Positions 1,585 through 31,936 are shown, numbered from the stretch's first letter. The stretch: 64,000 nucleotides of DNA from an uncultured Bacteroidota bacterium (GCA_903919075.1 CAIXGR010000047.1:1-64000), one strand, 5' to 3'. Made by a program: numbers and translations. The notes: generated by a model not told the origin, from the letters alone.

Positions 1585-2703
1585 CTATTGAAACAGACAA
1601 GCCAATAGAGTAGCACTTCCAAAATTTTGAAGGTAAACCGGTAAATAAGCGCTGCCCCAAAATACCTGGTTTTGGTATTTAACCGATGGCAAAATGAATA
1701 TTGCGGGCGTTATCATCATCACCAGCGAAAAGAGAAGTATACTGAAAAATAGTCGGCTATCATATATTGGTTTATTTCTATGAAACCCGTGTAAAATAAT
1801 AACAGCAATAATAATAATAGCAATGATTGCGAATAAATTAACGGGATTGGCAAGTTGAAAAGAAAGAATCCGGGGAATTTTATACTGTCCATCAAGGTTA
1901 GATAATGGCAGTGAGGCGTAAAGCTGCTTTTTCAAAAGCGTCCACATACTCTGCAAGTCCAACCTCATTTCTAAGCCCTGGTAACTAAAAGCAGGATTAA
2001 ATTTATACACCCGCAGCCAGCCTACATAGCCTAAGTATATAGCGGCAATTAAAAGAGCTGGCAAATAGCTTTTGAAGAATAATTTGCGCGGTGTTTTTAA
2101 TATCAAGGCCGATACTGGCATTAATATCAATACCGTCATGCCAACTTCTGAAAGCAATAGCGCGGTTGCAAATAAAAAAACAGAAAGGATTAAAAATTTA
2201 TTTTTCTGTCTTTTCAGAAACATGCAATAAAAAAGAAGACTCAAAAAAAGCAAAACAGATAATACCTGATACATGCCATTTATGCTGCTAAAGGCGTCAT
2301 GAAAGGTAACTCGCAACTGGATAACGGCACCGAAACACAGCAGCCAAATTGGAGTATTAATACCAAGGTTTAATGAAGAAAGATATAGCAAAAAGACTGC
2401 AATAGCCAGCAGATTCATTATAAATACAAATAATTTGTATGTTTCCAGGGTATTAAAGCACCGGAATACCAGTTCCGTTAATATTGCTGAAATTGGAGTA
2501 TAGCGGCCAGAGCTTTTCCAGAAATCTATTAAGGGGCGGGAAAGGTCAATAATACTTTGTTGCCTTACAGTAGGGTTGTTCTTTAACTGAAAATTATGCA
2601 GGTCGTCGGAATAAAGGCCACTTTTCAAAACGGGAAACAGGCAAACCATTATCAAGCAAAAACCAAGAATTGTAAAAAACTTTTTTTGTTTGTTGGTATC
2701 CAT
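1585..2703 (-). CDS. GT-C-like polytopic membrane protein, probably C-terminally truncated
   Basis: The protein has about 372 residues with roughly nine hydrophobic helices. After the first helix comes SDDLHNF, an acidic motif in the first periplasmic loop as seen in GT-C (GT39/ArnT-like) glycosyltransferases, then SSGRYTPIS. The ATG at 2703 is preferred over the upstream TTG at 2763. The protein stops soon after the last helix, at a sequence resembling the middle of longer relatives. Comparable proteins in this window (468 and 505 residues) continue with a soluble C-terminal part. Because the end abuts the recombinase/IS segment, truncation by insertion is likely but inferred. Substrate is unknown; it would act in the inner membrane on a lipid-linked sugar. 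Confidence 0.6.
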   Translation of the reverse strand: MDTNKQKKFFTILGFCLIMVCLFPVLKSGLYSDDLHNFQLKNNPTVRQQSIIDLSRPLIDFWKSSGRYTPISAILTELVFRCFNTLETYKLFVFIMNLLAIAVFLLYLSSLNLGINTPIWLLCFGAVIQLRVTFHDAFSSINGMYQVLSVLLFLSLLFYCMFLKRQKNKFLILSVFLFATALLLSEVGMTVLILMPVSALILKTPRKLFFKSYLPALLIAAIYLGYVGWLRVYKFNPAFSYQGLEMRLDLQSMWTLLKKQLYASLPLSNLDGQYKIPRILSFQLANPVNLFAIIAIIIIAVIILHGFHRNKPIYDSRLFFSILLFSLVMMITPAIFILPSVKYQNQVFWGSAYLPVYLQNFGSATLLACLFQ

Positions 2704-2801
2704 CGCGAATGCTTTACTCGTTTTCTTGGGTTTAGGTAGCCATGTTTTAAGGCTTAGGCACAATATTAACTATTTTTTAAAATCCACCGGCTCAAACACC
2801 C

Positions 2802-2853
2802 TGCATTTGATATGCTAATGGCAGAGGATGAAGCCTATAGCATGTCAAATGCA
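2802..2853. repeat. 16-bp inverted repeat in divergent intergenic region
   Basis: The arms TGCATTTGATATGCTA and TAGCATGTCAAATGCA pair over 16 positions with one G-U, around a 20-nt loop. There is no following T-run, so it is not an obvious terminator. It sits between two divergent genes, upstream of the proposed paaN promoter. Confidence 0.6.
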
Positions 2854-2881
2854 ATTAGCTCCACAGCAGAAACTTTTTTAA

Positions 2882-2889
2882 TATCTTCG
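2882..2889 (+). promoter_or_regulatory. Putative -7 element for the PaaN-type gene
   Basis: TATCTTCG matches the Bacteroidota consensus TAnnTTTG with one mismatch. It sits 20 bp before the ATG, implying a short leader. Confidence 0.4.
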
Positions 2890-2909
2890 CCCTCAATTAA
2901 AAACAAATT

Positions 2910-4565
2910 ATGGCATTAACTACAGCAAATAAGGAAATAGTTGACAAAGCAGTAAAGGCAATTCATGAGCGTATTTTTTACGCACAATATCCTGAGCATC
3001 CTAAAGCTTATGGCGAAGATGCTCCCGGCAAGGGACAAAGTGCCTATAATAGCCAGCTGGGTAAGCCATTCAATGGCTTGCTGCAACAAAATCCTGTGGC
3101 TTGGGAAGGAGAGGAAGTTTCTCCTTATACCATGAAATCGCTTGGTGTTACTTATCCTGTTTTTGAAGTGGATACTCTTATAGTTCGTGCCGGAAGAGCG
3201 TTTGATGCATGGCGGCATGTAAGTGTTGAAGACCGCGCTGAAATTTTGGTTGACGCGCTGGAAAAAATTAAATACCGCTTTTTTGAAATTGCTTACGCTA
3301 CGCAACATACCACAGGTCAAAGTTTTGTGATGAGTTTTCAGGCATCGGGCCCACATGCAAGTGACCGTGCACTTGAAGCCATGGCTATGGGTTATGAAGA
3401 ACTGCAACGTTTTCCCGGAAACGTAACTTGGGAAAAACCTATGGGCAAAGTATCGGTAAAGCTGCAAAAAGAATTTAAGCCTGTGCCTAAAGGTATTAGC
3501 TTAGCCATAGGCTGTTCTACTTTCCCAACATGGAACTCAGTGCCCGGAATTTTTGCTTCACTCATAACCGGTAATTCAGTAATTGTAAAACCACATCCTA
3601 AATCGGTATATCCAATTGCAATAGTAGTTGCTGAAATTCAAAATGCGTTAAAAGCAAAAGGCATTGATACCAATGTTTGCCAGCTAGCTGTTGATTCATC
3701 AAAAAATTTAATCGCCAAAACTTTGGCAAAACATCCTTTAGTAAAACTAATTGATTATACCGGTGGTTCAGAGTTTGGTGATTATATCGAATCTATCCCC
3801 GGTAAAACAACATTTACCGAAAAGGCAGGGGTGAATTCAGTAATACTTGATTCGGTTGCTGATTTGAAAACGGTTGCTCAGAATTTGGGTTTTGCTGTGT
3901 CTTTATATTCCGGCCAAATGTGTACTGCGCCACAAAATATTTTTATTCCTGCCGGGGGTATAAAACAAGGAGATAAAACAATTTCGTATGAAGAAGTAAA
4001 AAGTGCATTGACCGAAGCTATTTCAGGTTTAAGCTCTCATCCACAAATGGGTCCGGGTACTTTAGGCGCTATACAAAGCGAGATTACTTTAAAAAGAGTA
4101 AACTCAGCAAAAGATTTAGACGCTAAGGTATTACTTGCACCGGCTAAAGTAGCCAATGCAGAATTTCCTGAAGCACGCACCTCATCGCCAATTGTATTAG
4201 AGGTTGATGCTAAAGATAAAGGCATTTATGAAAACGAATTGTTTGGCCCAATTGTATTGATTATAAAAACTAAAGATACAGCTCAATCAGTTGAATTGGC
4301 TAAAGATATGGTTGCCAAACATGGCGCTATTACTTGTTCTGCTTATAGCACCGATGAAGCCACTGCAAAAATGATAACCGACGAAATGGAGAGTGTGTTT
4401 GCACCGGTATCATTAAATCTTACCGGTGTGATTTGGGTAAATCAGCATGCGGGTTTCAGCGATTTTCACGTTACCGGTGGTAACCCCGCAGGCAATGCAT
4501 CATTTACCAATCCTGAGTATGTGAACAAACGTTTTGTTTGGGTAGGCCACCGCAGAGGGGTCTAA
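2910..4565 (+). CDS. paaN: PaaN-type aldehyde dehydrogenase of phenylacetate degradation
   Basis: The 551-residue protein matches the variant aldehyde dehydrogenase family called PaaN in phenylacetate catabolism. The N-terminus (about 100 residues) is specific to this branch. The Rossmann NAD(P) domain follows, with KPHPKSVYP as the cofactor loop, and the catalytic Cys is in SGQMCTAPQNIF (C338). The C-terminal part ends with TGGNPAGNASFTNPEYV. In the classical pathway it oxidises the ring-opened CoA semialdehyde, but ring hydratase and the other paa genes are absent from this window, so the actual substrate may be another aldehyde. It is monocistronic here and converges on gmhA. The ATG is supported by a nearby promoter-like element. 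Confidence 0.85.
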   Translation: MALTTANKEIVDKAVKAIHERIFYAQYPEHPKAYGEDAPGKGQSAYNSQLGKPFNGLLQQNPVAWEGEEVSPYTMKSLGVTYPVFEVDTLIVRAGRAFDAWRHVSVEDRAEILVDALEKIKYRFFEIAYATQHTTGQSFVMSFQASGPHASDRALEAMAMGYEELQRFPGNVTWEKPMGKVSVKLQKEFKPVPKGISLAIGCSTFPTWNSVPGIFASLITGNSVIVKPHPKSVYPIAIVVAEIQNALKAKGIDTNVCQLAVDSSKNLIAKTLAKHPLVKLIDYTGGSEFGDYIESIPGKTTFTEKAGVNSVILDSVADLKTVAQNLGFAVSLYSGQMCTAPQNIFIPAGGIKQGDKTISYEEVKSALTEAISGLSSHPQMGPGTLGAIQSEITLKRVNSAKDLDAKVLLAPAKVANAEFPEARTSSPIVLEVDAKDKGIYENELFGPIVLIIKTKDTAQSVELAKDMVAKHGAITCSAYSTDEATAKMITDEMESVFAPVSLNLTGVIWVNQHAGFSDFHVTGGNPAGNASFTNPEYVNKRFVWVGHRRGV

Positions 4566-27650: not shown

Positions 27651-27826
27651 GTAGAAGTATAAATTTTTAACCTTGTTAAGTGTAGGCCTTAGTTTTAGTT
27701 CTATAACCAAATATTGAAAACAGTAAGATATGGTTTAAAAAAATATTGGTTTATAAACAAAAATATAACCGGATTTTTAATCGAAATCCGGATTTGATAA
27801 ATTAGATGAATGCCAACGAATAATAA

Positions 27827-30800
27827 ATGACACCCATGCAAAAGCAAACATTTACTCTTTTATTTCTATTCTCATTTTTTGCGTTTTCTAAAGCGCAGCA
27901 ATCGGCTGTTCCCCCCGCTATGAATTATCAGGCAGTGGCGCGAAACGGTAGTGGAGATATTCTTACCAACGAAAAAATTTGTGTAAGATTCACTATAGAT
28001 TACGACCCCACCGGCAATAACGGTTCAACCGATTATCAGGAAACACAAACCGTTACCACTAATCAATTTGGGTTGTTTACAGCCAAAATTGGTCTGGGTG
28101 CCCCCACTACATCTTCAATCTTCTCTAATATTGATTGGGCAACCGGCCATAGATATTTACTGGTTGAAATTTCTCTTAATTGCGATGCGCCTTCCAGTTC
28201 TACTTCGTGGTCCAATATGGGCTATACTGAATTAGTGAGCGTGCCTTACGCTTTATACGCAGCCAATGCTTCAACTCCGGGTCCCACAGGCCCACAGGGT
28301 AATACGGGCCACACTGGGCCACTCGGCCCTCAAGGTATCGCCGGCGTTACCGGTCCAATGGGAGCTACCGGAAATACTGGCGCTACCGGCCCACAAGGTA
28401 TTCCTGGCCCAACCGGCCCACAAGGTATAACAGGTCCGCAAGGTTTAATCGGTAATACCGGCCCAACAGGCGCACAAGGCAACACCGGTCCACAAGGCCC
28501 ACAAGGTATTACCGGTCCGCAAGGTTTAATTGGTAATACGGGCCCAACAGGCGCACAAGGCGATACCGGTCCACAAGGCCCACAAGGAATTACAGGCCCA
28601 CAAGGCTTAATTGGCAATACCGGCCCAACTGGTGCCCAAGGCAATACCGGCCCAATCGGCCCACAAGGAATTACTGGCCCGCAAGGTTTAACCGGGCCTA
28701 CCGGGGCCACCGGCGCCCAAGGCGATCCAGGTCCAACAGGTCCACAAGGTATAACAGGTCCGCAGGGATTGATTGGTAATACTGGTCCACAAGGAGCACA
28801 AGGCATACAAGGTATACAAGGCATACAAGGAGTTACTGGCCCACAAGGATTGATCGGTAATACTGGCGCCCAAGGCGATACTGGCGCCCAAGGCCCTCAA
28901 GGAATTACAGGCCCGCAAGGCTTAATTGGCAATACAGGCGCTACAGGCGCACAGGGCATACAAGGTATACAGGGTATACAGGGGGTAACAGGTCCACAGG
29001 GATTGATTGGTAACACTGGTGCCACCGGTGCCCAGGGTGACCCAGGTCCAACCGGCCCACAAGGAATTACCGGCCCTCAGGGGTTGATTGGTAACACTGG
29101 GGCTACCGGCGCACAGGGAAATCCCGGCCCAACTGGGCCACAAGGAATTACTGGTCCGCAAGGACAGATAGGTAATACAGGTGCTACCGGTGCACAAGGT
29201 GACCCGGGCCCAACCGGCCCACAAGGAATAACCGGTCCACAAGGATTAATTGGTAATACGGGTCCAACAGGTGCGCAAGGTATACAAGGTATAACCGGCG
29301 CAACCGGTGTGCAAGGAATACAGGGCAATACCGGTGATACCGGTGCTCAGGGAATTCAAGGTATAACCGGCGCTACCGGGTCGCAAGGTATTCAGGGTAA
29401 TACCGGCCCAACCGGTGCACAAGGCAATACCGGCCCAACCGGCGCACAAGGTATTCAAGGCATTCAAGGCAATACCGGGCCTACCGGTTCTCAGGGTTTA
29501 CAAGGCAATACAGGCGCCACCGGTGCGCAGGGTATACAGGGTGATACCGGCCCTACGGGTTCGCAAGGTATACAGGGTAATACTGGCGCAACCGGTGCAC
29601 AAGGTATACAGGGTATAACCGGCGCCACTGGTGCACAAGGTATACAAGGCATTACCGGCCCCACTGGTTCTCAAGGCATTCAAGGTATTACCGGCGCTAC
29701 CGGCGCACAGGGTATTCAAGGTATTACAGGTGCAACTGGCTCGCAAGGTATACAAGGCGTAACCGGTGCAACCGGTGCTCAAGGCATACAAGGCAGCACT
29801 GGTGCCACAGGTTCACAAGGCATACAAGGTATTACTGGCCCAACCGGTTCACAAGGCATTACTGGCCCAACAGGTTCGCAAGGTATCCAGGGTATTACAG
29901 GCGCCACCGGTTCGCAGGGTGTAACAGGTTCACAAGGTATTACCGGCCCTACCGGTGCTCAGGGTATCCAGGGTATTACTGGTGCCACCGGTTCGCAAGG
30001 CGTAACTGGTTCACAAGGTATTACCGGCCCAACCGGCGCTCAAGGTATTCAGGGTATTACCGGTGCTACCGGGTCGCAGGGTGTAACAGGTTCACAAGGG
30101 GCCACCGGCTCTCAGGGTATTACCGGCCCTACTGGTTCATTAAGCGGAACTGCCGGGGGCGATTTACAAGGCTCATATCCTACCCCTACCGTAACCCATA
30201 TTCAAGGCGATTCAGTTTCAGCTATCAACCCTATTAACGGGCAGGTTTTATTTTTTAACGGAAGTTCTTATGTGCCGGTTACTATCGATACTAACAGGTC
30301 TTGGCATATATTAGGTAACTCGGGAACCTCTGTAACAACTAATTTCTTAGGAACTACTGATAATGTTGACCTGCAGTTTAAAGTAAACAACACTAAAGCA
30401 GGCTTAATTGATATTGCACAGGAAAACACATATTTCGGTTACAAAACCGGCTCCAATAATACCGTTGCGGCTGTTTATAATACCTCAATAGGATACCAGG
30501 CATTGGCTTCTAACATTAATGCAGGATATAACGTAGCAGTAGGCGCAAATTCGCTGTTCTCCCAAAATTATAGTGGCTCAGCGTTTAATTCTTACAACGT
30601 GGCAGTTGGGGTCAACGCATTGTTTAGCAACCAACCTACCGGAACATTAAATGGCTATCAAAACGTTGCCGTTGGTTACAACGCTTTATACTTAAATAAT
30701 ATCGGTGCGGCAAATACTGCTGTAGGTTATCTGGCCTCTCAACAAAATACATCGGCTATAGATAATGTGGCCATAGGCGCTAAAAGTTTATTCACTAATC

Positions 30801-31936
30801 AAATCGGCAACTGGAATACTGCTGTAGGCGAAGAAGCTCTTTATAATACCGTAACCAGTTGGAATACTGCTGTTGGTTATTATGCGTTGTATAATAATTC
30901 CTCCGGCAATTCAAATACTGCATTGGGCTACTATGCTTTACAAGGCAACATAACCGGGGGGTCTAACGTTGCGGTTGGTGCAAATGCATTATCTTTAGGG
31001 GGCACTGCATTATCAAACTGTACAGCTGTTGGATATAATGCGCTAAGAGGCTCTTATGGCTCTAGCAATACCGCAGTCGGATACAACGTGCTGAACGTTA
31101 ATAACGGCGGAACCTTCAACACCGGCACTGGCACAAGTGCTTTAAATGCTAACTCAGCAGGAAGTGATAACGTAGCTGATGGCGCTTCGGCATTAGCCGG
31201 TAATAGCAGCGGTAACTATAACGTAGCAGTCGGTTATACAGCTTTATTTACAGCCAACGCAAGCAACAACACAGCGGTGGGAAATGCTGCCGCTTACTAC
31301 AGTACGGGTAGTAATATTACCGCTGTTGGATATAATGCCGCTATCACAAATACTACGGGTAGTAATATTACTACTATTGGATATACTGCAGATGTAACAT
31401 CAGCCGGCCTTACCAACGCTACAGCAATTGGTGCCTCCGCAAAGGTAGATTCATCCAATAAAGTTAGAATCGGCAACACAACAGTAACCAGTATCGGCGG
31501 TGCAGTTCCTTGGTCAGTGTTTTCTGATGGTCGCGTGAAAGATAATGTAGCAGCAAACGTACCAGGTCTCGGATTCATTACTTTACTTAAACCGGTTACT
31601 TATAACTATAACCTTGAAAAAGAAAATCGGTTATTGGGCATTACCAATGATACTTTGGAATATCCCGGCAAGCACGATATAGAAAAAATATCGTTCAGCG
31701 GATTTATCGCGCAAGATGTTGACGCAATTGCTAAAAAGATAGGCTATAGTTTCAGCGGAGTGGATAAGAATGGAAGAATATGGGGATTGCGTTACTCTGA
31801 TTTTGTGCCATCTTTAGTTAAATCCATTCAGGAGCTAAACCAAAAGAATGAAGCACAGCAACATCAGATAGACCAACTGAATTCAAGAATGGATAGACTT
31901 GAAAGAGAAATTGAAGAGTTAAAAGGCAAGCGGTAG
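27827..31936 (+). CDS. Collagen-like surface protein with head repeats and S74 self-cleaving chaperone
   Basis: The 1369-residue protein has, in order: a signal peptide ending FAFSKAQ; a ~120-residue beta domain starting [15 protein letters not shown]; 207 uninterrupted Gly-X-Y triplets (residues 152-772) rich in GPTG, GATG, PQG and IQG; a [13 protein letters not shown] linker typical of fibre proteins; about 340 residues of trimeric head repeats of the NTAVGYNAL kind (~867-1204); and a C-terminal endosialidase-type chaperone beginning [10 protein letters not shown] with Ser1233 and Lys1238, ending in a coiled coil. S74 chaperones trimerise fibres and then cut themselves off before the Ser. 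The product is probably a trimeric fibre at the cell surface. No T9SS tail or barrel anchor is visible, so its export and anchoring are open. The ATG at 27836 is an alternative start. Confidence 0.9.
28280..30142 (+). repeat. Collagen-coding tandem repeat block
   Basis: All 207 triplets are in register. The first part is built of modules of about 24-27 codons around [16 protein letters not shown]. The second part uses shorter 12-codon units around [10 protein letters not shown]. The opposite strand is also free of stops over long stretches, which creates several shadow ORFs. Confidence 0.9.

Follow-up and report, generated by a model that had tools for sequence, protein, structure and literature searches.

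A probable MAT-like surface fibre with a collagen stalk and a predicted self-cleaving S74 domain in an uncultured Bacteroidota bacterium

The stretch of DNA analysed here (the window, 64,000 nucleotides of an uncultured Bacteroidota bacterium, GCA_903919075.1 CAIXGR010000047.1:1-64000) carries on its plus strand an intact open reading frame, 27827-31936, which encodes a protein of 1369 amino acids and on which the parts of this protein described below are likewise oriented. Reading of the translation by eye places a likely Sec signal peptide without lipobox Cys at residues 1-23 (27827..27895), followed by a beta domain at residues 28-148 (NYQAVAR...VPYALYA, 27908..28270) supported by profile comparisons and AlphaFold2, and by a collagen-like stalk of 207 Gly-X-Y triplets at residues 152-772 (28280..30142) recognised by Pfam and in the sequence itself. 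A linker with a module, W..GNSGT...NFLGTTDN, defined by comparison with related fibres, occupies residues 773-868 (30143..30430) and precedes about 20 repeats of about 17 amino acids with the pattern N-x-A-V-G-x-x-A-L at residues 884-1225 (30476..31501). The protein ends with an S74 intramolecular chaperone/protease at residues 1233-1369 (31523..31933), assigned from Pfam, homologues and a fold match. This architecture is not due to chance, the collagen and S74 matches being above curated cut-offs and the repeats evident by eye, and the order of signal peptide, beta domain, collagen, head repeats and S74 given in a preliminary description of this DNA is borne out by the reading frame, Pfam, AlphaFold2 and the sequence. 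An 8-bp inverted repeat (CCGGATTT...AAATCCGG) was also observed at window positions 27769-27791, about 35 bases 5' of the start codon.

The beta domain had no match in Pfam. AlphaFold2 predicted six strands for it with a mean pLDDT of 82 (ten copies from the same genome were modelled), and a fold search against the PDB returned generic beta-sandwiches only, none with an E-value better than 0.011. This absence of a close fold in the PDB agrees with what has been published on the mosaic adhesive trimers (MATs) of Bdellovibrio by Caulton et al. (PMC10769870), according to whom no PDB structure is homologous to the MAT N-domain, which they presume to attach to some element of the surface. These MATs, a term that a search of the open literature returned in three papers, all of them about Bdellovibrio, consist of a signal peptide, a conserved beta domain of about 130 amino acids and a long trimeric fibre with S74 or other folds as tips, and are displayed on the cell surface (PMC10769870). 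Genomes for comparison were reached via a published Bdellovibrio 16S primer (PMC3628794) used as DNA pattern, which gave 13 loci, B. bacteriovorus kdesi among them. When whole genomes of Bdellovibrio relatives were searched with a profile of the Bacteroidota N-domain (A1), each of the four full-length S74 proteins of B. bacteriovorus kdesi was matched at its N-terminus (per-genome E-values of 6e-6 to 3e-3), and so was one further protein of 650 amino acids. Alignment of A1 with the Bdellovibrio N-domains by hhalign gave a probability of 98.8% and an E-value of 1.3e-16 over 106 columns, that is, over the full domain. In the reverse search, the leading matches of the independent NCBIfam model Bdello_MAT_N in the Bacteroidota genome were N-domain proteins (best score 39.6 bits). 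The window domain alone gave 27.2 bits with this model (NF053851, E 2.9e-6), under its curated cut-off of 60 bits, and a B. bacteriovorus kdesi protein bearing the domain gave 225 bits. On these profile comparisons, the window N-domain is considered a distant homologue of the MAT surface-retention domain and, because of its score below the cut-off, a homologous sister branch rather than a member of the narrow Bdello_MAT_N family. By analogy with Bdellovibrio, it is probably a surface-retention module.

The window protein was first described as a single fibre, which does not hold for the genome (3.5 Mb, 97 contigs), where five S74 proteins, four of them with collagen, and 15 beta-domain proteins were counted. 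S74 was found in 29 of the 30 genomes of the family and the beta domain in 28, and a phylum-wide sample of 297 genomes yielded the beta domain in 78. Of 46 N-domain proteins, 16 have S74, 12 collagen, three YadA_head, two each Lcl_C and Peptidase_G2 and one C1q; other C-terminal partners occur as well. A tree built from 106 beta domains shows no fewer than 12 switches of the S74 label on branches with strong support, from which it follows that tips have been exchanged, those swapped comprising S74, C1q and lectin-like ones.

The resemblance to the Bdellovibrio bacteriovorus MAT fibres (PMC10769870) concerns the conserved beta-rich domain of about 130 amino acids placed directly after the signal peptide and homologous to the MAT domain (about 120-135 amino acids), the long fibre, and a constant N-domain combined with exchanged C-terminal tips, which in Bdellovibrio are S74 with an SDxxxK motif in one subset and TNF-like or lectin-like in the rest. 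Unlike them, the window fibre has a collagen stalk of 207 triplets (no Gly-X-Y run was found in the Bdellovibrio MAT proteins examined) and a repeat head and belongs to a different phylum, and some of its relatives adjoin a small T9SS-exported protein. Two further observations concern the N-termini of related fibres. A second N-terminal module at residues ~20-90, NNVGIGT..P..SA.LEL....GFLVPRMT..QR.AI..P...LLVFDT (loci L165, L159, L183, L157, L174, L192 and others), is borne by S74 collagen fibres from which both the MAT-type domain and a T9SS tail are absent. In another S74 collagen fibre of the same genome, the N-domain is divided between two frames (G000:C84:19665-20023), possibly through a frameshift or an assembly error.

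As to export, the genome encodes at least 150 T9SS tails, and the window protein itself has no match to the T9SS sorting tail (PF18962 / TIGR04183), nor to a barrel, in accordance with the preliminary description. Complete S74 proteins numbered 63 in the family, 27 with and 36 without the N-domain. T9SS tails were found on none of the 27, compared with about 13 of the 36, the latter count being 5 with Pfam, 11 with NCBIfam and 13-14 with our own regular expression and seeded profile; one of the 14 tails of this profile, L172_m_1569, proved false, as it ends in the S74 coil. The difference between 0/27 and 14/36 has a Fisher p of 1.2e-4, and the contrast runs in the same direction with every count. 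Since N-domain and T9SS tail do not co-occur in the S74 fibres of the family (0/27 vs 5-14/36), they appear to be two routes to the surface of which a fibre uses one or the other. Most S74 proteins with neither N-domain nor T9SS tail begin with other N-terminal modules. No secretin was found in the genome, which rules out T2SS export of the kind used by Legionella Lcl. The question of export, initially regarded as unexplained, is narrowed: the lack of a T9SS tail stands, and the N-domain is homologous to the MAT domain presumed to keep such fibres on the cell surface.

Some S74 proteins of the family do carry a tail. In several without the N-domain, S74 is followed by a T9SS sorting tail (L148, L163, L177, L181, L188, L201, L226 and others), an arrangement in which self-cleavage would take off the sorting signal once export has occurred and which points to events in a set order. 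Some relatives were also noted whose single chain has two S74 domains and then a T9SS-like tail (L161:1154-4801, L191:340-4005, L176:993-4292), in which cleavage at the first site would shed all that lies downstream.

A small protein of about 180 amino acids, in which Pfam recognises the T9SS tail only, is present in exactly three copies in the genome, all adjoining or near N-domain fibres. It lies immediately upstream of the fibre on contig C21 (~2489-3091), immediately downstream on C50 (10216-10746) and one gene off on C84 (16572-17105). In the family (loci including L231-L270), 46 copies were examined with their surroundings: 36 have an N-domain fibre no more than 200 nt away on their own strand, with the copy directly preceding the fibre in 32 of these cases, and two of the ten remaining, unlinked copies are at contig ends. 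Chance would place a random gene so in about 1% of cases, a rough estimate, the kinship of the genomes limiting their independence. The coordinates by themselves reveal further pairs, and at four loci outside the family a matching neighbour was found within short flanks. The fibres linked to this partner carry collagen in 16 of 24 cases, C1q in four and S74 in two. The small protein is a candidate anchor or carrier for such fibres.

This linkage leads to a proposal that extends the main explanation without contradicting it, namely that docking of its N-domain on the small T9SS-exported partner, which bears the tail, brings the fibre to the surface or keeps it there, so that the fibre would ride along or be anchored and fibres lacking a neighbouring copy would use the partner in trans. 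The placement of the three copies in the genome, the linkage of 36 of the 46 family copies (32 with the fibre directly downstream), the four loci outside the family, the absence of T9SS tails from N-domain S74 fibres (0/27 vs ~13/36) and the lack of a secretin, hence of a T2SS, all speak for docking. Against it, no small T9SS-tailed protein is found next to the window fibre, there are 15 fibres for only three partners in the genome, and Bdellovibrio MATs are displayed on the surface although only Bacteroidetes are described as having a T9SS (PMC7906972). Docking is accordingly put forward as a tentative explanation, attractive enough to keep in view and open to considerable doubt. Somewhat more doubtful still is its wider form, in which the N-domain would be a surface-anchoring module common to two phyla that works in Bacteroidota with a T9SS-exported partner from a conserved two-gene cassette.

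At the other end of the protein, residues 1233-1305 matched Peptidase_S74 (PF13884) with 26.9 bits against a cut-off of 22, and the last 182 amino acids aligned over 98% with Bacillus phage tail spike proteins (30% identity, E 3e-10). In the AlphaFold2 monomer model (mean pLDDT 77, with values over 75 for most of S74), the best PDB fold was the ICA domain of MyRF (7dc3, E 1.6e-3, prob 1.00), after which came the phage chaperones 3gud and 3gw6 with weak scores (E 0.09 and above); a phmmer search of the S74 region against the PDB returned coiled coils only. The dyad motif reads S1233-D-G-R-V-K1238, and its Ser, Asp and Lys are invariant in the 63 family homologues, 27 with the N-domain (the window protein included) and 36 without. 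The S74 identity with a Ser/Lys dyad that had been proposed is upheld by the Pfam match, the phage spike alignment, the ICA fold and the invariant residues. The long C-terminal helix (residues 1323-1368, 31793..31930, AlphaFold2 pLDDT >90) is likely the trimeric coiled coil of S74, as the model places it at the same position as the leucine zipper of the MYRF ICA domain (PMC3742443).

The resemblance to the phage endosialidase/tail spike chaperone (Peptidase_S74, PF13884; 3GW6, 3GUD) comprises the C-terminal place, the Ser-Asp...Lys residues, the end helix and the predicted removal after trimerisation; the window fibre differs in being a bacterial protein with a signal peptide and without an endosialidase domain. 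The MYRF ICA domain (7DC3; PMC3742443, PMC8326128), the closest solved fold to the modelled S74, has the same dyad and a terminal coiled coil, although MYRF is a eukaryotic transcription factor precursor. The view that S74 chaperones are known mainly from phage is not supported, given their presence in all but one of the 30 family genomes, in Bdellovibrio MAT fibres (PMC10769870) and in animal MYRF (PMC3742443).

Self-cleavage that is lost in catalytic-residue mutants has been reported for phage, MYRF and the Bdellovibrio fibre Bd3182 (PMC3742443, PMC10769870), and in a MAT fibre with the SDxxxK motif cleavage was blocked by S782A (PMC10769870). From the position of the S74 Ser and a mechanism taken by homology (PMC10769870, PMC3742443), the self-cleavage site of the window protein is predicted at Phe1232/Ser1233 (31520..31525). 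The piece so released keeps the ~137 residues of the preliminary description, its computed mass being 15.6 kDa and not ~14 kDa. The S74 of the window protein could instead be a trimerisation clamp only, which folds the fibre, makes no cut and stays as its tip. It is indeed divergent and insert-bearing, with 32.8 bits compared with 51-66 for the other four S74 domains of the genome; its dyad is nevertheless intact, Ser, Asp and Lys are conserved in 63/63 homologues, and a MAT with the same SDxxxK motif was seen to cleave (PMC10769870), all of which makes a clamp without cleavage improbable and favours the self-cutting S74. That the whole fibre was borrowed in evolution from the tail fibres of phage, as decayed prophage cargo with no cellular role, is a reading already disfavoured and scarcely credible: S74 does align with phage tail spikes, but the reading frames on both sides look by inspection like ordinary chromosomal genes, the signal peptide is intact, the dyad is invariant, and S74 (29/30) and N-domain (28/30) occur throughout the family genomes, often in many copies.

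Between S74 and the collagen, the repeats (residues ~884-1225, ~20 copies) are spaced by 14-22 amino acids, mostly 16-17. The trimeric head repeats earlier proposed are present, but their resemblance to YadA is one of pattern only, for no match to YadA_head (PF05658) was obtained with Pfam at E up to 1 and no matching chain or solved head was found among PDB sequences. An identity as YadA head was consequently dropped. What is common to YadA-type trimeric autotransporter heads is the short N-x-A-x-G repeat, suggestive of a trimeric beta-roll; the window protein differs in having no YadA_head match, no YadA anchor barrel and a repeat of ~17 amino acids. As judged from its sequence, the repeat region is probably a trimeric beta-roll or beta-helix head. 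YadA_head was matched in three of the 46 N-domain relatives, LbR_Ice_bind in single relatives, and the module GNSGT...NFLGTTDN (residues 773-868) recurs at varying positions in related fibres.

The collagen stalk is an uninterrupted Gly-X-Y run with a Pfam Collagen score of 310 bits, as in bacterial collagen-like proteins, and would measure about 178 nm if entirely triple-helical, assuming 0.286 nm per residue. In all 23 S74 fibres having both N-domain and collagen, the collagen starts within 40 amino acids of the N-domain. Long Pro/Cys-rich antisense reading frames were noted opposite the collagen repeats (window 28330-29791, minus strand) and are mechanical by-products of them. Two NCBIfam models passed their cut-offs with the window protein, NF046116 adhesin_Lcl (513.9 bits, cut-off 500) and NF038329 SclB (326.6 bits, cut-off 325), from which the fibre could be named an Lcl/Scl-type collagen adhesin. 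This naming can hardly be right and membership is refuted, given that the best-scoring stretches lie within the collagen (residues 416-775), that Lcl_C is absent from the window protein by Pfam and that the genome, lacking a secretin, has no T2SS of the kind through which Lcl is exported (PMC11162425); the common feature is the collagen stalk. Automatic annotation could thus misname the protein, as these equivalog models pass their cut-offs on the collagen part alone. Legionella Lcl (PMC11162425) is similar in its secreted trimeric collagen stalk and in a C-terminal trimer from which the collagen may begin to fold, and Lcl_C tips are indeed present on N-domain relatives within the same genome; unlike the window fibre, Lcl has a coiled-coil N-terminus, no S74 and T2SS export.

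Taken together, we consider with good confidence that the gene product is a MAT-like mosaic adhesive fibre with a collagen stalk, predicted to trimerise, to cut itself and to be held at the surface. The data show its architecture, the kinship of its N-domain with that of MATs, the conserved dyad, the exchange of tips and the missing T9SS tail, while cleavage and adhesion are predictions. That it forms a trimeric surface fibre is inferred from its collagen, S74 and N-domain, the surface location being carried over by analogy from another phylum. Following Sec export, as read from the sequence, three chains would by homology join via the C-terminal S74, which would seed the folding of both repeat head and collagen in the direction of the N-terminus, zippering from the C-terminus having been proposed for collagens with C-terminal trimerisers (PMC11162425). 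Once the fibre is trimeric and folded, Ser1233 and Lys1238 would, again by homology, cut before Ser1233, releasing the 15.6-kDa chaperone and leaving a fibre of 116 kDa per chain with the repeat head as its tip. The N-domain would then hold the fibre at the surface, possibly via the T9SS-exported partner, as homology and gene linkage suggest. The head may bind a glycan, a surface or another cell, which is a guess from the family.

In Bdellovibrio, MAT fibres serve prey recognition by a predator (PMC10769870). The fibre class itself has been described recently, and what is new here is the collagen stalk on a MAT-like fibre; such collagen-stalked fibres are common in this Bacteroidota family, which shows that bacteria other than predators have the class in a collagen-stalked form. 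For making collagen, a bacterial collagen that brings its own C-terminal trimeriser and removes it by itself is of practical interest too. More broadly, many Bacteroidota surface proteins that have neither a name nor a Pfam family are tied to the MAT fibres reported in 2024 in a bacterial predator. The outcome of most interest lies beyond the gene itself, in the cross-phylum N-domain and the T9SS-linked cassette. The conserved T9SS-tailed gene neighbour provides a concrete candidate for how MAT-type fibres are held at the surface, and T9SS mutants can be made in Bacteroidota. If the docking proposal is true, large self-trimerising fibres without a T9SS signal would be carried to, or held on, the cell surface by T9SS cargo.
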